Positions 24,779-64,000 of a DNA stretch of 64,000 bases are shown piece by piece. Under the pieces are notes generated by a model. That model saw nothing but the letters and a program-made list of their open reading frames with translations. It did not search any database and was not told where the DNA came from. The stretch lies in NCBI RefSeq assembly GCF_000722635.1, contig NZ_JOKH01000001.1, forward strand, positions 937,162-1,001,161, read 5' to 3'. The stretch is from Endozoicomonas numazuensis. GTDB taxonomy: Bacteria; Pseudomonadota; Gammaproteobacteria; Pseudomonadales; Endozoicomonadaceae. The position numbers and the translations under genes were made by a program. Within the stretch, counting starts at the first letter, position 1; the number at the start of each line of letters is the position of its first letter.

Positions 24779-25513
24779 ATGCCTCGTCCACTCTATCCTG
24801 CAACTCTGGCTGCCAAGCGTCAGCTCAGCCAGAACACCGTGCAGCTGGACTTCAGAGTAGAGGGCGGGTTTGACTATCAGCCTGGGCAATTTGTGCAGTT
24901 GCACTTCTCCTTTAAAGGGCAGGATTATAAAAGAAGTTACAGTATTGCCAACGCGCCTGAGTCGTTCAAAAACACCCGGGAGATTGAAATAGCCATCAGC
25001 TTTGTTGAAGGGGGAGTTGCGTCCTCACTGTTCAGTGAAGCAGAGCCAGGTCTGAAGCTGTCTGTCGGTGGGCCTTTCGGAATTCTCACGGCGCCAGATC
25101 AATACGATGGACGAATCATACTGGCCGGTACCGGAACAGGTCTGGCCCCCTACCGGGCTATGATTCCGTCATTGAAAAAGCTAGCCAGTGCGGGCACCCA
25201 GATTCTTGTCATGATGGGTGTAAGACACAGGGCTGATATGATTTACGAGCAAGACTTTCGTGAGCTCGCAGCCTCATCCGAAACCATTGAATACCGGGCT
25301 TGCTACAGCAGAGAAAAATCCTTGAATAGTGCTTTGCAGGAATATCCGGGCTACCTTCAGAACCAGTTTCCTGAACTGGGTCTTTCCCCAGAAAAAGACC
25401 TTATATACCTGTGTGGTAATCCAGCCATGATTGACGATGCTGCAGCGGCACTCAAAATACTGGGCTTTAGTCCAAGGCAGGTCAAACGAGAGAAGTATGT
25501 TTTTTCCAGCTGA
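24779..25513 (+). CDS. FAD-dependent NAD(P)H oxidoreductase (ferredoxin reductase-like)
   Basis: A 244-residue flavoprotein of the ferredoxin-NADP reductase fold. The FAD-binding motif KRSYSIANAP, the glycine-rich GGPFGILTAP, the nicotinamide-binding GTGTGLAPYRAMIP and the late LCGNPAMIDDA are all present. It likely passes electrons between NAD(P)H and a small redox protein, but the partner is not in the window. The start at 24779 has AAGGAG six bases upstream. Longer frames run back into the foldback repeat and are not credible. Confidence 0.88.
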   Translation: MPRPLYPATLAAKRQLSQNTVQLDFRVEGGFDYQPGQFVQLHFSFKGQDYKRSYSIANAPESFKNTREIEIAISFVEGGVASSLFSEAEPGLKLSVGGPFGILTAPDQYDGRIILAGTGTGLAPYRAMIPSLKKLASAGTQILVMMGVRHRADMIYEQDFRELAASSETIEYRACYSREKSLNSALQEYPGYLQNQFPELGLSPEKDLIYLCGNPAMIDDAAAALKILGFSPRQVKREKYVFSS

Positions 25514-25601
25514 ACCAGAATAGTAGCAGGTAAGGGTAGCCGCAGGAGACAGGACATTTATCGACACTTATATCCAATGGGTATAGAAAAAGACCGACAC
25601 A

Positions 25602-25826
25602 GTGAAGGGAATTGACCATATTCTTTGTGATCACACCATTGTCAATGAACTTCTGCCTATGGGTAACTGCCACTTTATCGATACGGGTGCCTTTACAACG
25701 GACAAACTCACGGTGATGGCTTTTGACAGTCTGAAACCCAACGATCTTCAATCAAGCCCATTCCCCCATGTATTGCCCCCGGACGATACCCAAAAATTCA
25801 ATAAAAAAACGAATGACGCTTATTAA
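25602..25826 (+). pseudogene. C-terminal remnant of a PP2A-type metallophosphatase
   Basis: About 74 residues. The stretch LPMGNCHFIDTGAFTTDKLT, followed by VMAFD, resembles the final strands of serine/threonine protein phosphatases and ApaH-like enzymes, where GN..FIDTGA lies near the C-terminus. The metal-binding N-terminal two thirds are absent. The frame begins just after a repeat-like end (TATCCAATGGGTATA at 25571-25585). I infer a gene truncated by insertion or deletion. An unrelated short gene cannot be excluded. Confidence 0.5.
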
Positions 25827-25912: not shown

Positions 25913-26019
25913 TTACGGCGTTGATTGTCAGACCCCCTTCACTCATAAATTCACCTGCCTTTAAAGATGTTCGGTCAACGCCCTATCCACGACTCAGTAT
26001 CCGTCAAAGGATCTTCATC

Positions 26020-26172
26020 ATGAAAACTGTTTACATTCAGACTGAAACCACGGCTTCAAAAATCAGCACTCAGAAGCAAGCAGCCAAAAAAACGATCAGG
26101 CACTCTTCACCCTCAACGGTTCGCAGTATCAAAAATAGAAACTCAGAATGCACTTGGGATGGAACGCCTTGA
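26020..26172 (+). CDS. 50-residue basic peptide, candidate precursor of an exported peptide
   Basis: The frame starts at ATG 26020 with AAAGGA eight bases upstream. It encodes a peptide rich in Lys, Arg, Thr, Ser and Gln that ends in NSECTWDGTP. It has no signal peptide and no membrane segment, so it could be a leader-core type substrate. Its stop codon lies within the 5' part of the ABC ATPase gene, and a TTG start for that gene would overlap the stop as TTGA. I do not recognise a family. The argument for it is position, ribosome site and overlap with a peptide-exporter-like operon. Confidence 0.5.
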   Translation: MKTVYIQTETTASKISTQKQAAKKTIRHSSPSTVRSIKNRNSECTWDGTP

Positions 26173-26906
26173 GCCTTTTCAAGGTATCAGGATTAACCAA
26201 GCAAATCTCAGGCAAAACGATTGTTAATGACATTCACCTGAATATTAATTCAGGTGAATGTCTTGGCATTCTAGGCCCTAACGGTTCCGGTAAATCAACG
26301 CTGGTAGGGTTGATGTCAGGCATCATTAAGCCTACCCATGGCACTGTTCGTTTTGGCCACCTCTGTTTACAACAGAATCGCAAACAGTTTTTAGGTCGCA
26401 TAGGTCGCCTGCCTCAAGATTCCAACCTTATGAACAACATGACGGTATACGACGGTCTTATTAACCAGGCCGGATATCATGGTATGAGTCGAAAACAAGC
26501 CAGACCCATTATTGATGATTACTGCGATCAATTCAGACTCAACGAGTGGGTCCATGTTGAAAGCCAATATCTTTCAGGCGGTACCAAAAAAAGAGTGATG
26601 TTGGCCAGAGCACTAATGCACTCTCCGGATCTGTTATTTCTGGATGAACCCACTTCTGGTGTAGACATACAAAGCCGGATGATGATCTGGGATTACCTTT
26701 CACAACAGGTTGAGAAAGGCCTGTATATCATCCTGACCTCCCATGACTTTCAGGAAGTATTCAAGCTTTGCTCAACCGTCATTAACCTGGACAAAGGTTC
26801 GTTAAGACGCGAAAAACAAAGCCTTGCCGATTACTGTCAGGGACAGACTGCATCGTCGCCTTCACTTGAAAGGCAATACCTGAGCCAGATGAACAATGAA
26901 CCATAA
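26148..26906 (+). CDS. ABC transporter ATP-binding protein (ABC-2 exporter type)
   Basis: A 252-residue ATPase with Walker A GPNGSGKST (residues 43-51), a Q-loop in RLPQDSN, the signature LSGGTKKR (142-149), Walker B LLFLDEPTSG and the H-loop TSHDFQEV. It is of the NodI/YadG/CcmA type, which energises export of lipids, polysaccharides, drugs or peptides. It overlaps the small peptide frame upstream and the permease start downstream by 11 bp, so the three are one translational unit. The start may be the ATG at 26148 or a TTG at 26169. Confidence 0.9.
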   Translation: MHLGWNALSLFKVSGLTKQISGKTIVNDIHLNINSGECLGILGPNGSGKSTLVGLMSGIIKPTHGTVRFGHLCLQQNRKQFLGRIGRLPQDSNLMNNMTVYDGLINQAGYHGMSRKQARPIIDDYCDQFRLNEWVHVESQYLSGGTKKRVMLARALMHSPDLLFLDEPTSGVDIQSRMMIWDYLSQQVEKGLYIILTSHDFQEVFKLCSTVINLDKGSLRREKQSLADYCQGQTASSPSLERQYLSQMNNEP

Positions 26907-27672
26907 CTCACTGACAGGTTTTTTGACCATCATTGCTTACGAGGTCAAATCCTGCAGTAGAGAATCTTATTATGCTTTTTTTGCCCCTCTGATTACCGTC
27001 ATTCTGTCTCTGATCGTTATTGGTGGAATACTGGGTCAACAGATTGGAAAAATTCACGGCGTTGAGTACCTGCGCTACTTTTCCACGGGTTTGTTGCTCA
27101 GTTGCATCTCCGGAAGTTGCTACAACCATATTGCCAGCACCCTTTTCAGTATGAGGTATGTAGCCCACTTTTCAGAATTAACGGCCAGCCCAATGCCAAA
27201 CCGGGTTATCGTGCTGGCCTATGCCACTTGTGGAGCAATCACCGGTTTTGTCGTATGCCTGCCTGTTAACATCATTATTTTGTTCTTGCTGCATGGCAAA
27301 CTGTATAGCTGGCTCCTGCTGCTAGCACTGATGCTATTTACCGGGCTGATGTTTTCACTGTTGGCTTATATCAATGCCATGTTGTCGAAAAAATTCAAGG
27401 ACATCTCTATTTTTGAGAATCTGACCTTGAAGCCATTACTTTTTTTCAGTGGTATTTACTACGACGTATCCAGTCTCCCTGACAGCCTGCAAACCCTGAG
27501 CTACTTTAATCCACTTTTTTATCTGGCCAATGCCTACCATGTGGCTGTTTTAGGCTTCGACTGGTCTGTAAAGCCTGTCTACAGCTCAGCCGTTTTCCTC
27601 TTCTCAGCGCTTGCCTTTCTGGTCATTGCTATCAAACTGACCGATCGACAGGAGCTGTCATTTAACCCATAA
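26896..27672 (+). CDS. ABC-2 type transporter permease
   Basis: A 258-residue integral membrane protein with six hydrophobic segments, for example ITVILSLIVIGGILG near the N-terminus and VIVLAYATCGAITGFVV mid-protein. The ABC-2 signature region FFSGIYYDVSSLPDSLQTLS, followed by YFNPLFYLANAYH, is close to that of NodJ/YadH permeases. It should form the membrane channel of the exporter with the preceding ATPase. The substrate is unknown. The neighbouring peptide and peptidase-like genes make a peptide plausible. Confidence 0.88.
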   Translation: MNHNSLTGFLTIIAYEVKSCSRESYYAFFAPLITVILSLIVIGGILGQQIGKIHGVEYLRYFSTGLLLSCISGSCYNHIASTLFSMRYVAHFSELTASPMPNRVIVLAYATCGAITGFVVCLPVNIIILFLLHGKLYSWLLLLALMLFTGLMFSLLAYINAMLSKKFKDISIFENLTLKPLLFFSGIYYDVSSLPDSLQTLSYFNPLFYLANAYHVAVLGFDWSVKPVYSSAVFLFSALAFLVIAIKLTDRQELSFNP

Positions 27673-27696
27673 ACGCAGGTCTGGACATCGATTATC

Positions 27697-28611
27697 ATGA
27701 ATCAGATAGAAGCTTTTTTTTCAAGTCAGGACATAGGCTTTATTTGCAGCAACAAAGCAGCCCAAAAAGAGCTGACACAAAAAGGGATCCCTGCCTACGA
27801 TCCGATATCTGAACGGGACCATAATCACTTTGCCTATATAGGTCTGATCAAAAACAGTGAAGAGAGAGCCGCATTTTTTGAGAACCGTCCCGACGATGCC
27901 CGGCTACTCAGCTTGCCACTGCATTTCTTCGACAACTCAACAGAAGCTGTGCTGTATAACCTTAAACAATTGTTCGCAATCGACTTTAATCAGTGCCTGT
28001 CGGACCGTGATGAATGGTACAAGCGCTTGACCGAAAACGAGAAGCTGATTTTCGGCAAGGACAACTTCACCCTTGAATGCATCCCTCATAATCCGGTCTG
28101 CCTGGATGTGATTGATGACTCCCCTCTCTTTCCCTGTACCGCATCTAGATTATTGGAAGTCGGGCTGGAGTATCAGACAACCGATGAAAACAGAACCTTC
28201 ACCATTAATGGCACCTTGCCTATTGAGGGAGCTGTCGTCAGCTGCCTTCCTTGTATCACCCATGAGCAGCACGAAAAAGGATTGAAAATTGCCCGCCGCA
28301 TTGCTGCCAGCCAATTAACTACCTGTGAAATTGTCAATAATGAGCTGGTTTCACTCAACATAGACGGTGATGAATGTTGCCAGCAGGTGGTGGCTCTGGC
28401 GGGCCCTTCTGATGGTGAGTTGGGTCCTAAACCGACAGAAGCCAAAGAGTTTTCTATTGGACTGAACAAGTGGGTGCTGGATAATATCGACTACACCATA
28501 AACAGTCCGCTCAATGAGGGAGTTGAAGGCATTCATGTCGGCTTTGGTGATGGTCACAACGGCCTGCATATGGATTTTTTGATCCCTCAGGCCCAGCTCA
28601 TCAGCCCCTGA
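27697..28611 (+). CDS. M29 aminopeptidase-like protein
   Basis: A 304-residue soluble protein lying 24 bp after the permease. The C-terminal half resembles M29 metallo-aminopeptidases (aminopeptidase T) and related NicX-like enzymes: TLPIEGAVV, then EFSIGLNKWV, PLNEGVEGIHVGFGDGHN and GLHMDF. Candidate metal ligands E251, E274, H280, H291 and D293 fall at the family positions. The N-terminal 150 residues match nothing I recognise. In this cassette it could trim or mature the exported peptide. Function is inferred from pattern and context only. Confidence 0.6.
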   Translation: MNQIEAFFSSQDIGFICSNKAAQKELTQKGIPAYDPISERDHNHFAYIGLIKNSEERAAFFENRPDDARLLSLPLHFFDNSTEAVLYNLKQLFAIDFNQCLSDRDEWYKRLTENEKLIFGKDNFTLECIPHNPVCLDVIDDSPLFPCTASRLLEVGLEYQTTDENRTFTINGTLPIEGAVVSCLPCITHEQHEKGLKIARRIAASQLTTCEIVNNELVSLNIDGDECCQQVVALAGPSDGELGPKPTEAKEFSIGLNKWVLDNIDYTINSPLNEGVEGIHVGFGDGHNGLHMDFLIPQAQLISP

Positions 28612-28614
28612 CTC

Positions 28615-28911
28615 AGGAAATTAACTCCTTTGAGAATGGCCGCATTCTCCTTGCCAGTGAGTGTTTCTACCCGGACGCAGAATCGCTGTAATCAATTTAC
28701 CGCTGAGTCCCTCGAAAACCATCAGGGGCAAATAGCAGTAATCCTGATATTTGGCATTGAACAGATTCAGCTGCTGCCCACCGTGAGTAATAGCGGATGT
28801 ATGGTCAAGATCGATAATGACCGCCATAGGTGGCAGCTCATAGCTGCAGATAAAGTGATGAACAAACACCTCGGCAATTCTGTGGAAGTTTGTCAAAGCA
28901 GACTGTGCCCA
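28615..28911 (-). pseudogene. IS1380-family transposase remnant
   Basis: On the minus strand the frame reads VIIDLDHTSAITHGGQQLN, then QDYCYLPLMVFEG and ITAILRPG, a typical IS1380 DDE transposase segment. It then shifts frame: the continuation TGKENAAILKG is in another frame and runs to the end of the M29-like gene. Both ends of the transposase are missing. It is a decayed insertion sequence. Confidence 0.8.
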
Positions 28912-28916
28912 TAATA

Positions 28917-29290
28917 CAGAGGCCGATGTGTTTATCTGTCCAGCTGGAGAAACACTGATCACTAACCCTGACAGCAAAGTCAGGGGAAAGAGCTACCGGG
29001 CAAAAAAAGATGCATGCAAAGTTTGTCTCTCTCGTTCAAAGTGCAATGGTTCTAAGAAAGAGGCTGGCAGGGTTATCCGTGTCGATCAGTTTGAGAAGGC
29101 CTGTCAGGCCATGAATAAGAAAATGGAGACAACTGGCTCAAAAGCAATTTACAAACGTCGCAAGGTCATTACAGAGCCACCATTGGGTCATATAAAAGAG
29201 TCGGAGGTTCAATCTTCGTGGTTAAAACGACTTGATGAACTTTCCGGGTTAAGAGCGTTGAAACAGAGGCAATTTACCGTTGGCATAAAT
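28917..29290 (+). pseudogene. IS1182-family transposase C-terminal remnant
   Basis: The plus-strand frame shows the cysteine-bearing zone FICPAGETLI, KDACKVCLSRSKCNGSK and the late GSKAIYKRRKVITEPPLGHI, followed by K. This is the DDE_Tnp_1_6 region of IS1182-type transposases. The N-terminal part is absent. The end is scrambled after HIKESE and runs into the 3' end of the DedA-PAP2 gene on the other strand. No inverted repeats of an intact element are visible. Confidence 0.8.
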
Positions 29291-30502
29291 TCTTTCTGCC
29301 ATCACCGCCGCACTGAACCAGACGCCTCCTAACAATGCACCTGCCAGAACATCTCCAAACCAGTGGGCTTCAAGAACCAGCCGTGACAGAGCCACCATCA
29401 AAGCAATCAGCAGGGTAAAGCTGTAAGCACAGAACTTCACAACCCTTCTCTGTCCTGCAACCAGATACAAACTCACTATCAACCAGACGAAAGTTGCCTG
29501 GGTAGTATGTCCGGAAGGAAAAGAAAACTGCTCCAGGCCATCGAAATTGGAAGGTCTTGGTTTTTCGATCCCCCACTTCATTAGCCAGAGCGTCACTTCC
29601 ATACCTACCAGACAGGCGCATAAAATCAGTAATTTCCTATAACGCTTAGTCCACAGAAAATAGACACAGAATAACAATAAGGGAAACCAAAGACCCGCGG
29701 CACTTCCAAGCCAGGTCACCAGCCCAAGAACATGTTCAACGACAGGAACAGAAATATTGACGACAAACGTCTGTATCATTGCATTGTGATCATCCATCTG
29801 CCCACTGATATCCATCACTGTCAGGATCAGCAAGCTGATATGTCCAATTATAACGAAGCCAATGGGCAACATCAGAGTCATCTTATTCCTGCAAAGAGCA
29901 CGATCCATCATCAACCCAAGATAAGGAATCAACAGAGCTGCAATGGTTATACCGGCCAACAGGAAATAAAAAGTCTGCGGAACTTCTACCTTCAATGCAG
30001 CCCCTGTCAAATACCCTGGCATCATATACGCAATAGCCCAGGGAACTGATGAGAGCAGGTTGATGGTATAAAAGCGCAGGGGAGACATATCCATCATGCC
30101 GGCAACAGCAGGAATAACCGGACGAATAGGCCCAATAAACCGGCCCAGAGCAACGCTGAAGCCACCGTGTTTTTCGAAAAAATACTCACCTTTCTTCAAC
30201 CACCCCGGGTGTGTCGAAAAAGGCCAGCAATCACGGATTCGTGCATGCAGATGATGGCCTACCTGAAAACTGATTCCATCACCCAGAACAGCACCAAAAA
30301 AAGCCCAGGTCAGCATAGGTAAAGGCTCCATCAAGCCACTACCCGCCAAGGCACCAAGAGCAAACAGTAGAGCAACGCCAGGAATAATAAACCCGATGGC
30401 CACCAGTGACTCAACAAAAGCAGCCAGTGCTATAAAGGGACCCAGCCAGTGTCCATGATGTTGAAGCCATGCATGCACTGCTACAAAGCTATCCGATTCC
30501 AC
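29249..30502 (-). CDS. DedA/VTT-domain and PAP2 phosphatase fusion membrane protein
   Basis: A 417-residue inner-membrane protein in two parts. Residues about 1-200 are a DedA (SNARE-associated/VTT) domain with FVESLVAIGFIIPGVALLF and ALGRFIGPIRPVIPAVAGM. Residues about 215-405 are a PAP2 phosphatase with the three motifs KWGIEKPRP, PSGHTT and SRLVLEAHWFGDV. Such fusions would combine lipid-carrier flipping (DedA) with phosphatase action on undecaprenyl-type or phospholipid phosphates. The substrate is inferred. Its 3' end lies against the IS1182 remnant, so the last few residues may have been altered. Confidence 0.9.
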   Translation of the reverse strand: MESDSFVAVHAWLQHHGHWLGPFIALAAFVESLVAIGFIIPGVALLFALGALAGSGLMEPLPMLTWAFFGAVLGDGISFQVGHHLHARIRDCWPFSTHPGWLKKGEYFFEKHGGFSVALGRFIGPIRPVIPAVAGMMDMSPLRFYTINLLSSVPWAIAYMMPGYLTGAALKVEVPQTFYFLLAGITIAALLIPYLGLMMDRALCRNKMTLMLPIGFVIIGHISLLILTVMDISGQMDDHNAMIQTFVVNISVPVVEHVLGLVTWLGSAAGLWFPLLLFCVYFLWTKRYRKLLILCACLVGMEVTLWLMKWGIEKPRPSNFDGLEQFSFPSGHTTQATFVWLIVSLYLVAGQRRVVKFCAYSFTLLIALMVALSRLVLEAHWFGDVLAGALLGGVWFSAAVMAERIYANGKLPLFQRS

Positions 30503-34357: not shown

Positions 34358-35290
34358 ATGAACTGCAGCTCGTATCAACGATATAAGCCCTTGCTACAGG
34401 GGCTTCTCCTGACTTTCTTCCTGATGAGTCACGCTCACGCCGGGGCTCCAGCTTTAAGCCAGCAACAGCTCGACACCTTGTCAGCCCTTCTTTCTGTAAC
34501 AGACACTCCACATGAGAAAACGTTTGATTCCATGGTTAATGCCACCCAAAAGTGGCGAAGACGAGCCGATCAGGAGCGCTGGGAAGTTGCAGACCTGAAG
34601 CTTACGGATGAGCAGAAAAATAAAGTAATGGAACATCTGGAAGCTTTGGGCTTAATCAAAGAAATGAAACCCGATAAGAAGCATTTTGATTATGCACTGG
34701 TACTGGGTGGCACTGCACCACGGATGAAAAGCCGCTTTCAGCACCTGGTCAAACTATGGAATGAAGGCGTCCGATTCGATCAGATTATTTTTTTATCGGG
34801 TCAGCGCCCTACTCAAGACGACATAGATCAGACAGACACACTGGTTTCTGAAGTAATTGGCAAAGATGCGCCCGACGATAAAAAACGAAAGGCGCGCCCT
34901 GCTACTGAAAAAGAGGCGGCTGAAATGGTCTATATGTCGACTAAAATGCCTGACGCAATGAAGCACATCAAGATCGACTTCTTCTCAACTGACCGTTTTT
35001 GGCTGGTCGATCGATGGCAACGTGGTAATACCCGAGACAGCATAAAAAACTGGGTTGCCAGCCATCCCAAACCCGGTTCTGCTGTGATCGTATCCAATCA
35101 GCCCCACCTTCTTTATCAGCAGGAAGTCATCAGGCAGGAATTACCGAAAGGCTTCACTACGCAAGCGACCGCCCGGCAATCGGACTTTGATGGTCAACTG
35201 ATCATGTATCTGGATGCTTTAGCGCTCTGGCTCCATAACCTGCAGGTCAGGGTAGCCCAAACAACAAACCAGGAGGCTGACCGAGAATAG
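34358..35290 (+). CDS. secreted YdcF/DUF218-like protein, paralog 1
   Basis: A 310-residue protein with a signal peptide (LLQGLLLTFFLMSHAHAG). The core reads FDYALVLGGTAPRMKSRF, then FDQIIFLSGQRP, RGNTRDSIKNW and AVIVSNQPHLLYQQEVI. This is the order of the nucleotide-binding-like fold of DUF218 (YdcF/SanA/ElyC) proteins, at low similarity. It shares most of its length with the gene at 35573. The C-terminus (QTTNQEADRE) extends past the paralog's end and is encoded by the left arm of a foldback repeat. Function is unknown. Confidence 0.65.
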   Translation: MNCSSYQRYKPLLQGLLLTFFLMSHAHAGAPALSQQQLDTLSALLSVTDTPHEKTFDSMVNATQKWRRRADQERWEVADLKLTDEQKNKVMEHLEALGLIKEMKPDKKHFDYALVLGGTAPRMKSRFQHLVKLWNEGVRFDQIIFLSGQRPTQDDIDQTDTLVSEVIGKDAPDDKKRKARPATEKEAAEMVYMSTKMPDAMKHIKIDFFSTDRFWLVDRWQRGNTRDSIKNWVASHPKPGSAVIVSNQPHLLYQQEVIRQELPKGFTTQATARQSDFDGQLIMYLDALALWLHNLQVRVAQTTNQEADRE

Positions 35291-35434: not shown

Positions 35435-35572
35435 AGTCTGCAAGCACCTTGCTAAATCAGTTTACTGCGCTGCCGAAACAGCCTTGAGCAGGGGAAAGAA
35501 TGTATTAATACCTGCTCTTTTCTCCACTCATGACGGCTTATCTGATTCTGATTGATTCCATGGAAGGACTCT

Positions 35573-36433
35573 ATGCCCCCACATAATCACTTCTCTGACA
35601 GCATACTTCTGGATCATGGCTCAGCCGCCGACAATCTCGAACTGCTGGCATTATCTACGTTAATGGAAGAAGTCGGTATATCCCACTCTGACTCTCTGAA
35701 ATCCCTGATTTCTGCCTCTCAGCAGTGGCGCAGGCGACCTGGTCAGGAACGTTGGGAAATGCAAGACCTGTCTTTAACACCGGATAAGCATGAAGCGGTG
35801 ATGGAGCACCTCAAAACCCTGAACCTGGTGGATGAGCTACTGCCCTCTTCGACCCATTATGAATACACCTTACTATTGGGCGCTACTGTTCCCAGAATGG
35901 AACGCCGTCTCAACCACCTGGCCCGACTCTGGCAGGAAGGTGTGCGCTTTAACAACATTGTCTTTCTGGTAGGGCAGCGCCCCCTGAATGACGGCATCGA
36001 CAAAACAGACTGCCTGATTGCCAACAGTATTGGAAAACAGGCGCAGGGACAAAGAGCTGAAGCCGCTCGCCCCCTCACAGAAACAGAAGGAGCGATGCAA
36101 CTGTTTGCATCTATGAAGCTGCCTGAAGCAATGAAGAAACTGCCGGTAGCATTTATCGACTCACCCAGGGTCTGGAAACGGGATCACTGGCAGAGAGCCA
36201 ACACCAGAGACACCTTGATTCGATGGATGAAAGAGTCGCCTGCTCCGGGCAAAACACTGGTTATTTCAGATCAGCCTCATGCCCACTATCAGCTGGAAGT
36301 AGTAAAGCAGGAACTCCCCGAAACCTTTAAACCGGAAGTAGCTGCCCAGTCTGCAGATGAAAACACACAGGTAATACTTTATCTGGATGCACTGGCGCTC
36401 TGGCTTCATAACCTGCAGTTACGGCTTAACTGA
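35573..36433 (+). CDS. cytosolic YdcF/DUF218-like protein, paralog 2
   Basis: A 286-residue homologue of the preceding secreted protein. Shared blocks include QWRRRPGQERWEMQDL, YTLLLGATVPRMERR, NIVFLVGQRP, ANTRDTLIRWM and LALWLHNLQ at the end. It has no signal peptide, so the two copies would work in different compartments. The start at 35573 has GGAAGGA just upstream; an earlier TTG at 35552 is less likely. The similarity to DUF218 is an inference from fold-level patterns, and no catalytic role is known. A terminator follows. Confidence 0.65.
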   Translation: MPPHNHFSDSILLDHGSAADNLELLALSTLMEEVGISHSDSLKSLISASQQWRRRPGQERWEMQDLSLTPDKHEAVMEHLKTLNLVDELLPSSTHYEYTLLLGATVPRMERRLNHLARLWQEGVRFNNIVFLVGQRPLNDGIDKTDCLIANSIGKQAQGQRAEAARPLTETEGAMQLFASMKLPEAMKKLPVAFIDSPRVWKRDHWQRANTRDTLIRWMKESPAPGKTLVISDQPHAHYQLEVVKQELPETFKPEVAAQSADENTQVILYLDALALWLHNLQLRLN

Positions 36434-38286: not shown

Positions 38287-38871
38287 ATGCAAAATAACAT
38301 GAATGTTTGTCCTATCTGTGAGTCAGGTCAGCTACATGAAAAAAACGAGTTGGAAGAGACTACCTATAAGGGTGTAACCGGACAAACCCCTCTCTACTAC
38401 TCTATTTGCGATGCTTGTGGCAGTGAGCAGGGTAATGCTGCACAGAGCCGAAAAAACAAACAAGCGATGTTGGCGTTTAAAAAACAAGTTGATGGTTTCC
38501 TGTCTGGCGAAGAAGTCAGAGAACAACGTAAACGTTGGGATATTACCCAAGCTCAAGCTGCCAGAATCTTTGGCGGTGGCCCTGTTGCGTTCTCCAAATA
38601 CGAAGCTGATGACGTGGTTCAATCTGAGCCTATGGATAAACTGTTGCGCGTTGCTCAAGCCGTTCCAGAAGCCTTTATTTGGCTGGCACAACAGGCAGGA
38701 GAGATGGATGTTTGTCAGAAAGCACGAAAAGCTTCTTTTGATTTGATTGAGAACTCTCTGACTCGGAAGGATGATAGTGTGGTCTTGTTCAAAGCCAGAT
38801 CCAAACCCGTAGTGACAAATCTCGAGCAGATCAGTGTATCTTCAACGGATTCTCTTCAGATAGCAGGTTAA
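38287..38871 (+). CDS. MqsA-like antitoxin with a C-terminal extension
   Basis: A 194-residue zinc-binding and helix-turn-helix antitoxin. The N-terminal zinc ribbon has CPICESG (with C9 and C12 region) and a second pair in ICDACGSEQ, with YKGVTGQ between them. The DNA-binding half has RKRWDITQAQAARIFGGGPV and AFSKYEADDV. E. coli MqsA ends at about 131 residues. Here about 50 further residues follow (from QQAGEMDVCQ), as expected for a chaperone-addiction tail bound by a SecB-like partner. The next gene, 5 bp downstream, encodes such a partner. Confidence 0.88.
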   Translation: MQNNMNVCPICESGQLHEKNELEETTYKGVTGQTPLYYSICDACGSEQGNAAQSRKNKQAMLAFKKQVDGFLSGEEVREQRKRWDITQAQAARIFGGGPVAFSKYEADDVVQSEPMDKLLRVAQAVPEAFIWLAQQAGEMDVCQKARKASFDLIENSLTRKDDSVVLFKARSKPVVTNLEQISVSSTDSLQIAG

Positions 38872-62457: not shown

Positions 62458-64000
62458 ATCGGGATAGGGCGTAGCCTCACGGCTACGCTCCTCCCACAAC
62501 ACCACAGCATACGGGTCCGTACTGGGCGTTTCGGCCAGTTAAGCGGCCAACAATCTGATTAAACCTAACTTATCAAACCAACTATTGGGTAGCGCCATGT
62601 GTAACGCAGGACTCCGGCTCACTCGCCAATGTCCTTTTCCTGAAGCTACCGTTTGCCTTGTCAGTTTGTCACTGATTCCCTGCTTTCGCAGTTCCTTGTA
62701 CCGCTTTGGGCTTCTCTTCCATTGATACCAGAGCAGACTTCGCAACCGCCTTCTTATCCAACAGTCAAAGTGTTCAAACTCTGTGCGGGTTTCTACTTCT
62801 CGGAAGTAGTTCTTCCATCCCTGCAAGTACCTGTTGAGTCCTTCCAGCCTCTGCTCAAGGGATCGACCTCCCTTTCGGGTTAGCTGTCTGATTTTATCCT
62901 TGAAGCGCTTGCCACTCTTTGTCGCAAGGGTTTTCCTGCCGTCTCGGGTAAAACTGTACCCCAGAAAGGGGCGCTTCCATGCCCGATCAACCGCGCTCTT
63001 TGTGTGATTGACTTTCAGTTTCATTTTACCCTCGATCAGCTTGACCAGACTGGCCATCACCCTTTCCCCTGCCTTCTTACTTTTAACAAACACACGACAG
63101 TCGTCAGCGTACCGAACAAATCGCAGACCTCGATTTTCGAGCGTTCTGTCAAGTTCGTCCAATACTATGTTTGAAAGTACAGGAGACAGGGGACCTCCCT
63201 GTGGCACACCCTCCGCTTGCGGTTTTACCAGCCCGTTTTCCATCACTCCGGACTTCAGGAATCGACGAATCAAACGCAATACATCCTTGTCCTCTATATG
63301 CTCTGCCAACTTTGCCATCAGTCGATCATGGTTGACCCGGTCGAAAAACTTCGACAAATCAATATCCACCACCCAGTTGTAACCATCCTTCATATACAAC
63401 TGAGCCTGACTGATAGCCTGATGTGCAGACCTATAGGGCCTAAATCCGTAGCTGTAAGCCGAGAACCTTGGCTCCCACTCTGCCTGCAATACTTGTTGTA
63501 TTGCCTGCTGCACCATTCGATCAAGAGCTGTTGGTATACCCAACTTTCGCTCTCCTCCGTCCGGCTTGGGAATCAGAACTCTTCTTACTGGAGTGGGTTT
63601 CCACAACCCTCTGCTCAAACACTGCCTCAGTTGACGACCATGCCCTTGTAAATACGTGAACAGGTCTTCCACTGTCATGCGGTCAATGCCTGCCGCTCCT
63701 TTGTTGCGTTTTACTCGCTGAAAGGCTTTCTTCAGATTATTGGGGTGGGCGATACGTGCCATCAAGCCTGTATCGCTTGCCGGGCTTTCGTAATCCTGTG
63801 ATGCCGACACAACCTCAGCCCTCATAACGTCGCAGCCTCCGGTTCCGCCGTGACCACTTGGCATGAGTTCCAGTGTTTGCTGGATTTGTCTGCGTCCGGT
63901 GTATCGAATAACAGAAACTATTCACCACTCTGTACCGTTCAGGCCTTCACTGACATTCGCCAGCTACTATGCCGTCTGCTGACTTCTGTATGGCGATCAG
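62458..64000 (-). mobile_element. group II intron (3' part with its maturase gene); 5' end beyond the window
   Basis: The minus strand downstream of the maturase stop folds as a group II 3' end. A perfect stem-loop GCGTAGCC-GTGA-GGCTACGC (62469-62488) stands for domain VI. It is preceded by a domain V-like GTACGGACCCGTATGC region and followed by CCTATCCCGAT, a usual intron terminus, so the 3' junction is near 62458. The ribozyme 5' domains lie beyond 63864 and past the window edge. Confidence 0.75.
62539..63864 (-). CDS. ltrA: group II intron reverse transcriptase/maturase
   Basis: A 441-residue intron-encoded protein that helps splicing and copies the intron into new sites. The reverse-transcriptase fingers-palm region has GAAGIDRMTVEDL, WKPTPVRRVLIPKPDGG, SYGFRPYRSAHQA and the catalytic YADD (252-255). 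The maturase/X domain carries FLGYSFTRDG and GWKNYFREVETRTEF. There is no HNH endonuclease domain, so mobility would rely on nicks or replication forks. It appears intact. An in-frame ATG at 63825, with GGAGG upstream, is an alternative start. Confidence 0.95.
   Translation of the reverse strand: MPSGHGGTGGCDVMRAEVVSASQDYESPASDTGLMARIAHPNNLKKAFQRVKRNKGAAGIDRMTVEDLFTYLQGHGRQLRQCLSRGLWKPTPVRRVLIPKPDGGERKLGIPTALDRMVQQAIQQVLQAEWEPRFSAYSYGFRPYRSAHQAISQAQLYMKDGYNWVVDIDLSKFFDRVNHDRLMAKLAEHIEDKDVLRLIRRFLKSGVMENGLVKPQAEGVPQGGPLSPVLSNIVLDELDRTLENRGLRFVRYADDCRVFVKSKKAGERVMASLVKLIEGKMKLKVNHTKSAVDRAWKRPFLGYSFTRDGRKTLATKSGKRFKDKIRQLTRKGGRSLEQRLEGLNRYLQGWKNYFREVETRTEFEHFDCWIRRRLRSLLWYQWKRSPKRYKELRKQGISDKLTRQTVASGKGHWRVSRSPALHMALPNSWFDKLGLIRLLAA

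Follow-up and report, generated by a model that had tools for sequence, protein, structure and literature searches.

Gene arrangement at the locus

A 64,000-nucleotide stretch of the Endozoicomonas numazuensis genome (contig NZ_JOKH01000001.1), hereafter the window, was analysed. Four reading frames lie in an operon-like row on its plus strand (26020-28611) and encode, in this order, a putative short peptide, an ATP-binding cassette (ABC) transporter ATPase, an ABC-2 permease and a protein, here gene 4, related to CgnB of the crocagin pathway. The features of this row are as follows.

26006..26011, plus strand: Shine-Dalgarno-like AAAGGA, 8 nt ahead of the ATG of the peptide frame, read directly
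26020..26172, plus strand: putative precursor peptide of 50 aa with an ATG start, frame read directly
26148..26906, plus strand: ABC transporter ATPase of 252 aa (Pfam ABC_tran, 1.4e-32); the start could be TTG 26169
26896..27672, plus strand: ABC-2 permease of the YadH/NodJ kind, 258 aa (Pfam ABC2_membrane, 1.1e-24)
27697..28611, plus strand: CgnB-family protein (gene 4) of 304 aa with the full CgnB set of metal-ligand residues (phmmer against the PDB)
28156..28575, plus strand: codons of E154, E251, E274, H280, H291 and D293 of gene 4, aligned with the six CgnB di-zinc ligands (alignments; ligand list as given in PMC10070186)

The peptide and ATPase frames overlap by 25 bp, or by the 4 nt TTGA if TTG 26169 is the start of the ATPase. 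The ATPase cannot begin earlier with a common start codon, because a stop lies four codons 5′ of ATG 26148. Its start falls inside the peptide frame, and its own Shine-Dalgarno sequence is by eye not strong, which suggests translational coupling between the two frames. The 11-bp overlap of the ATPase and permease genes (26896-26906) and the 24-bp gap between the permease gene and gene 4 are as given in a preliminary description made from the DNA letters. In a pattern scan for an operon promoter the sites were no more numerous than in shuffled copies, and the RNA fold 3′ of gene 4, where a terminator was looked for, was at shuffle level.

The identities given earlier for the ABC pair hold. PF00005 (ATPase) and PF01061 (membrane subunit) are both matched above their cut-offs, which makes the pair an ABC-2 exporter. 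The best NCBIfam match of the ATPase is drrA (8e-49), below its cut-off. The permease resembles the YadG/YadH exporter in matching the model PRK15066 (3.6e-49), but it stays below the cut-off of that model (167.6 vs 225 bits) and differs from YadG/YadH in adjoining a CgnB-like gene. Permeases resembling that of the window occur in 35 of the family's 38 genomes (a count that includes the window's own), with the best match in each other genome being 27-32% identical; the other copy in the same genome, on contig C3, is 28% identical.

The CgnB-like protein and its relatives

Gene 4 had been described beforehand as M29-aminopeptidase-like. This label was rejected as the main one, because gene 4 gives no Pfam match and the only sequences that it matches in the whole PDB (phmmer, E up to 10) are 6zsv (CgnB, E 3.9e-15) and 6zsu (CgnE, E 3.5e-6). 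Neither Pfam nor NCBIfam was matched at E up to 1, and the Peptidase_M29 cut-off was not reached. The match with 6zsv spans residues 72-301 of 304, so that the similarity extends over most of the protein. A profile search whose profile includes fragments of CgnB and CgnE does not count as independent evidence; the phmmer comparison of gene 4 with the PDB does.

The data statement of PMC10070186 identifies 6zsv as CgnB, and the same paper describes CgnB and CgnE as peptide-binding proteins of the pathway for crocagin, a ribosomally synthesized and post-translationally modified peptide (RiPP). Two metal ions are held in CgnB by E161, E252, E274, H280, H291 and D293 (PMC10070186), and E154, E251, E274, H280, H291 and D293 of gene 4 align as identical residues with all six of these zinc ligands (the PDB chain numbering of the 6zsv alignment is offset by 8 from that of the paper). 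In CgnE two of the ligands, at the positions of E274 and H280, are changed, and CgnE binds peptide seemingly without catalysis, as PMC10070186 presents it. According to the same source, the metal site is retained where a genome has only one copy. Gene 4 agrees with this, being a single copy with its ligands kept: a search of the window's whole genome at E up to 0.001 returned one match and no second CgnB/CgnE copy.

The CgnB-family profile also recovers longer proteins; two were examined, of which one lies above the Peptidase_M29 cut-off and the other below it. The metal-ligand positions are common to gene 4 and M29-type proteins in the alignment, and from such sequence comparisons the CgnB family is judged to be distantly related to M29. 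Gene 4 differs from the M29 aminopeptidases in giving no Pfam match, in its length (304 aa vs 377-397 aa in the two related proteins examined) and in a shorter H280-H291 segment. Could gene 4 then be an M29-derived metallopeptidase that removes the leader ahead of export? The kinship, the one longer relative that passes the cut-off and the common ligand positions speak for such a role, but gene 4 has no direct M29 match, and neither CgnB, whose ligands are the same, nor CgnE was observed to act as an aminopeptidase in PMC10070186, where the leader is removed by CgnD. Gene 4 is therefore not taken as a peptidase, and we regard this alternative as very doubtful. PMC10885120 likewise describes CgnD, distinct from CgnB, as the leader protease of crocagin. 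In the literature searched, nothing was found that joins M29 aminopeptidases with RiPP precursor peptides and an ABC transporter or biosynthetic gene cluster.

CgnB-like genes were compared at five loci, namely the window, plasmid pAA2-2c of Thermus thermophilus, a plasmid of Deinococcus sp. QL22, a genome of the window's order (G1025) and a Polyangia metagenome-assembled genome. The window, Thermus, Deinococcus and G1025 proteins each retain the complete set of six metal ligands. The Polyangia genome has two CgnB-like copies with starts 2.3 kb apart, one having the CgnB ligand set and the other having E274 and H280 changed like CgnE. In a tree of 10 sequences, CgnB, CgnE and the Polyangia pair form a crocagin clade (support 100/99) and the Thermus and Deinococcus proteins form a pair (94/98); the window protein stands outside both on a long branch, its place being unsure.

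An ABC ATPase gene and a membrane-protein gene adjoin the CgnB-like gene in three of the five loci: the window, the Thermus plasmid, where ABC ATPase and ABC permease genes lie directly 3′ of it, and G1025, where an ABC ATPase gene comes next, along with a 260-aa frame of membrane type that has no match in Pfam. Genes of the CgnB type thus adjoin those for ABC exporters in Thermus and in two genomes from the order of the window. The same gene set, which the preliminary description had proposed to look for elsewhere, is found in part. The Thermus locus resembles the window in having a peptide frame, a CgnB-like gene and both ABC genes in one row, but its order differs, with the CgnB-like gene ahead of the ABC pair, and the two CgnB-like proteins are 26% identical; in G1025 the pair is present and no precursor was identified. 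The CgnB-like frame of G1025 (L042 9672-10690) is about 90 residues shorter at its N-terminus than the window protein and sits close to the end of a contig, and this cassette may be damaged. On the Deinococcus plasmid a methyltransferase gene lies two genes beyond the CgnB-like gene.

The adjoining ABC pair would also suit a protein that is an escort only, binding the precursor and handing it to the ABC-2 exporter with no chemistry, so that the product is left unmodified. The behaviour of the homologue CgnE, as described in PMC10070186, and the lack of any other modifying enzyme in the operon are in keeping with an escort. Yet the binding-only copy of the published pathway has lost two metal ligands, while the six ligands are intact in the four proteins named above, and we therefore hold a mere escort to be unlikely. 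As to the earlier proposal that the set makes, matures and exports a peptide, its general idea fits the ABC pairs at three of the five loci; the part assigned to gene 4 as a peptidase is not borne out.

Of the 38 family genomes searched, only the window's own had a match for gene 4; the 37 others gave no relative. Genome searches for CgnB-like genes gave matches in 1/38, 1/369, 2/398, 1/369, 5/391, 4/175 and 1/170 genomes, where each of the seven counts includes the window's own genome and the draws overlap and are not independent. With the G1025 protein as the query, one genome of 22 was matched, G1025 itself. Four of the matched genomes (G782, G812, G864 and G888) have frames of 373-402 aa that align by the C-terminal part only, with E from 2.4e-5 to 5.5e-6; these are taken as M29-type, judging from the two examined (G812 and G782). 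A pattern-based scan of genome contigs yielded none with the window protein alone and one locus with the alignment, although such short patterns can miss relatives. Among 72,556 plasmid records two matched the window protein, and none matched the Polyangia CgnB-like protein. Phage and defence readings were tried and rejected: PHROGs gave no match for the peptide or gene 4, gene 4 is in no phage record, a pattern-based scan of viral contigs found none, and PADLOC matched the ATPase only (11 models), which was read as generic ATP-binding similarity.

Peptides beside CgnB-like genes

Short peptide frames adjoin the CgnB-like gene in four of the five loci, G1025 being the fifth. The window peptide has 50 residues, among them 9 Lys/Arg and 3 Asp/Glu, and its C-terminus reads ...KNRNSECTWDGTP. 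In its core, C-T-W-D-G-T-P, the single Trp is preceded by Thr and followed by DGTP, and so the crocagin-type C-terminal Tyr-Trp is not present. The crocagin precursor CgnA consists of a basic leader and Ile-Tyr-Trp, with Arg13, Gly17 and Asn18, and processing was severely reduced when Arg13, Lys15 and a third residue were changed together (both as reported in PMC10070186). Counted from its Trp, the window peptide has Lys at position −8 and Arg at position −6, which are the offsets of Arg13 and Lys15 in CgnA. The profile search suggested for this peptide led to no known precursor family: no Pfam family came above its cut-off (LAS2 at E 0.092 is below), and NCBIfam gave no match.

In Polyangia, a 41-aa frame (L005 5198-5323) is preceded by GGAGG, and its end lies 74 nt ahead of the earliest start that the first CgnB-like copy could use. 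Its product, MTKKTPKTVTPTDRKQNGNRYWKNPKSVSSTDRKTNANRYW, consists of two tandem 19-aa units, each with an RYW end. Between the units there are 3 synonymous and 6 non-synonymous codon differences, so that only the RYW ends and some of their neighbours are conserved. Both units have Arg at −8 and Asn at −3 from Trp, as CgnA does in PMC10070186, and one of them also has the Gly; one such precursor may yield two crocagin-type products. About 9 kb upstream of the precursor, the same contig has genes for a PhyH-type dioxygenase and a methyltransferase; the dioxygenase is not shown to belong with the precursor. The two-core precursor stands before the CgnE-like and CgnB-like genes, with transporter genes between and after them, of which 6379-7710 matches the POT family. 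A gene for a MACPF and hemopexin-repeat protein (L005 3330-4889) lies directly upstream of these crocagin-like genes.

The Deinococcus and Thermus frames, putative precursors with good Shine-Dalgarno sequences, each lie immediately 5′ of their CgnB-like gene. The Deinococcus frame (L004 9431-9727) encodes 98 aa, has GGAGG just upstream and contains EVKF[ST]YAPE three times. Summed over the three pairwise comparisons of these units, there are 13 synonymous and 2 non-synonymous codon differences, both of the latter being Thr/Ser, and this looks like the pattern that selection on the peptide would leave. The Thermus frame (L003 9449-9706) encodes 85 aa with AGGAGGTGA upstream; unlike the window peptide, its product holds FSYSYSVSYSW and ends in CPCGVGI. 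CPCG with a few further residues is the shared C-terminal end of the Thermus and Deinococcus peptides and is absent from the window peptide. By counts of Lys/Arg vs Asp/Glu, the window (9/3), Thermus (13/7) and Polyangia (11/2) peptides are basic.

Over the window, Thermus and Deinococcus peptides, 8 of the 10 Tyr/Trp residues are preceded by Ser/Thr: Thr-Trp in the window core, [Ser/Thr]-Tyr three times in Deinococcus, and Ser-Tyr three times and Ser-Trp once in Thermus. The mean in shuffled peptides is 1.8, and none of 20,000 shuffles reached the observed count, which is not a fair p-value because the motif was picked after the peptides had been seen and copies within a peptide are not independent. 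The Polyangia peptide with its Tyr-Trp cores has no Tyr or Trp after Ser/Thr.

A candidate CgnB-type cassette and its flanks

Our preferred reading, which we put at slightly better than even, is that the row is a minimal single-copy CgnB-type RiPP cassette with its own ABC-2 exporter. A short basic precursor would be made from 26020-26172 and bound by the CgnB-like protein (27697-28611), whose intact di-metal site would act on the Trp-containing core, with the Thr-Trp pair as the likeliest target; export of the product, or self-immunity, would fall to the ABC ATPase and ABC-2 permease. Four parts of this picture are inferred: the 50-aa frame is translated, its peptide is bound by the CgnB-like protein and undergoes a modification, and the product is transported by the ABC pair.

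Compared with the crocagin pathway of Chondromyces crocatus (CgnA-E, CgnI and CgnL) as described in PMC10070186, the window shares a CgnB-family protein with the full di-zinc ligand set, a short precursor whose leader is basic and whose end contains Trp, and transport genes in the cluster. In contrast to that pathway, it has one CgnB-like copy instead of CgnB and CgnE, a core of C-T-W followed by D-G-T-P instead of a C-terminal I-Y-W, and an operon without a CgnC-like dioxygenase, a CgnD-like hydrolase, a methyltransferase or a carbamoyltransferase; the window protein also falls outside the crocagin clade, with the uncertainty of placement noted above. The preliminary description had seen no known modifying enzyme and hence proposed a new class. 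This claim fails, since the family of gene 4 is itself one already known for RiPP processing. PMC10070186 counts homologues in about 100 genomes and mentions putative precursors beside single copies, and the window arrangement may be among the homologues already listed there. Gene-cluster profiles of Endozoicomonadaceae are described as limited, with RiPPs among them (PMC12491435).

Several observations weigh against the preferred reading, and the weakest element in it is the 50-codon frame. The frame, the AAAGGA and the 25-bp overlap are as claimed in the preliminary description, but the chance and codon tests do not prove that the frame is coding, and it is kept as putative. An ATG frame of at least 50 codons appears in 45% of 5,000 Markov-shuffled copies of the 659-nt stretch. 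The codon usage of the frame is matched or exceeded by 44% of 82 wrong-frame open reading frames, and a score as low occurs in only 0.6% of 1,191 real gene segments. A synonymous-only score falls between the classes, 34% of the 82 wrong-frame open reading frames being as high and 16% of 877 real segments being as low. No relatives of the window peptide were found in the 10 other genomes of the genus; it is unlike the Thermus and Deinococcus peptides, and its Trp, as read from the frame, is not C-terminal as in CgnA. Among the other loci, the Deinococcus peptide is not basic (10 Lys/Arg, 13 Asp/Glu) and no ABC pair lies within 10 kb on each side of that locus; the ABC gene of Polyangia is about 4 kb from the precursor; and the Thermus permease cannot be aligned with that of the window, neither it nor the G1025 membrane protein being matched to it by BLASTP at E up to 1. 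The net charge of gene 4 (−23) is little proof of anything: CgnB-like proteins are acidic (net −11 to −25), but charge does not discriminate them, since the two M29-type controls are equally acidic (−12 and −24). Finally, neither a CgnC-like dioxygenase nor a CgnD-like hydrolase is among 14 flanking frames compared with Pfam (24.7-38.9 kb, not every frame, and with no search made on the other flank or elsewhere in the genome).

The chance and codon tests would also agree with a further alternative, in which the 50-codon frame is no gene, the ABC pair exports a different compound in the manner of YadGH, and the CgnB-like protein acts on another peptide or a small molecule. The YadH-like character of the permease and the similar permeases throughout the family would agree with this. 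However, the ATPase start within the frame and the translational coupling that it suggests argue for the frame, and convincing small frames adjoin other CgnB-like genes. All considered, we find this combined alternative quite improbable.

If the preferred cassette reading is correct, what could the metal site do in the absence of a hydroxylase? As proposed in PMC10070186, CgnC hydroxylates the beta-carbon of Tyr20, CgnB eliminates water by means of its metals, and the Trp indole nitrogen adds to the resulting double bond. In the window core, the residue immediately ahead of Trp, where CgnA has Tyr20, is Thr, which bears a beta-hydroxyl group from the outset. It is conceivable, though quite unlikely, that single-copy CgnB proteins represent a hydroxylase-free branch of crocagin chemistry, being stand-alone metal-dependent Ser/Thr dehydratases or dehydratase-cyclases. 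With the hydroxyl group already carried by Ser/Thr, no tRNA, phosphorylation or hydroxylase would be needed, and the enzyme would be packed with an exporter. No crocagin-type dioxygenase was seen near the Thermus and Deinococcus genes, going by gene names in annotation tables known to be incomplete. Ser/Thr-aromatic peptides with no dioxygenase gene seen nearby, as against Tyr-Trp in Polyangia with a PhyH-type gene nearby, suggest the pattern expected of such a branch. Our assessment stays low because the idea is post hoc, is drawn from three peptides, and meets Tyr as the second residue in Deinococcus and most of Thermus, where Tyr cannot form the crocagin ring.

CgnB is known from one characterised pathway only, as far as we found in the literature, and its catalytic role there was inferred with a dioxygenase present. 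With a single CgnB-like protein and an operon free of dioxygenase genes, a unit of four genes would be a simple system for finding what the CgnB metal site does. Were Ser/Thr-aromatic pairs indeed modified unaided, the cassette would be a new, compact peptide-modifying tool.

The preliminary description had seen insertion sequence remnants on one side and a hint of transfer, and both observations agree with ours. On the right flank lie two different transposase remnants:

28621..28977, minus strand: transposase remnant DDE_Tnp_1_4 (Pfam, 4.1e-24)
28928..29332, plus strand: transposase remnant DDE_Tnp_1_6 (Pfam, 1.8e-10)

On the left flank, the two frames tested (25274-25826) gave no Pfam match. 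Since these remnants coincide with the absence of gene 4 relatives from the 37 other family genomes, acquisition fits, and the cassette was probably acquired. The codon scores of the ATPase (0.017), permease (0.069) and gene 4 (0.122) are low compared with the mean of 0.195 for the other genes of the window, as acquired genes may show.

Some other features of the window were noticed. The short frame at 25602-25826, left of the cassette, resembles by eye the C-terminal end of a metallophosphatase, with no Pfam match. Two neighbouring genes at 34358-35290 and 35552-36433 are alike by eye, the first with a weak DUF218 match, and are possibly a tandem duplication. A gene with an MqsA antitoxin domain lies at 38287-38871. 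At 62539-64000, a group II intron reverse transcriptase with a maturase domain and the start of an intron RNA match run off the window; this group II intron end is the one Rfam match in the window and is far from the cassette.

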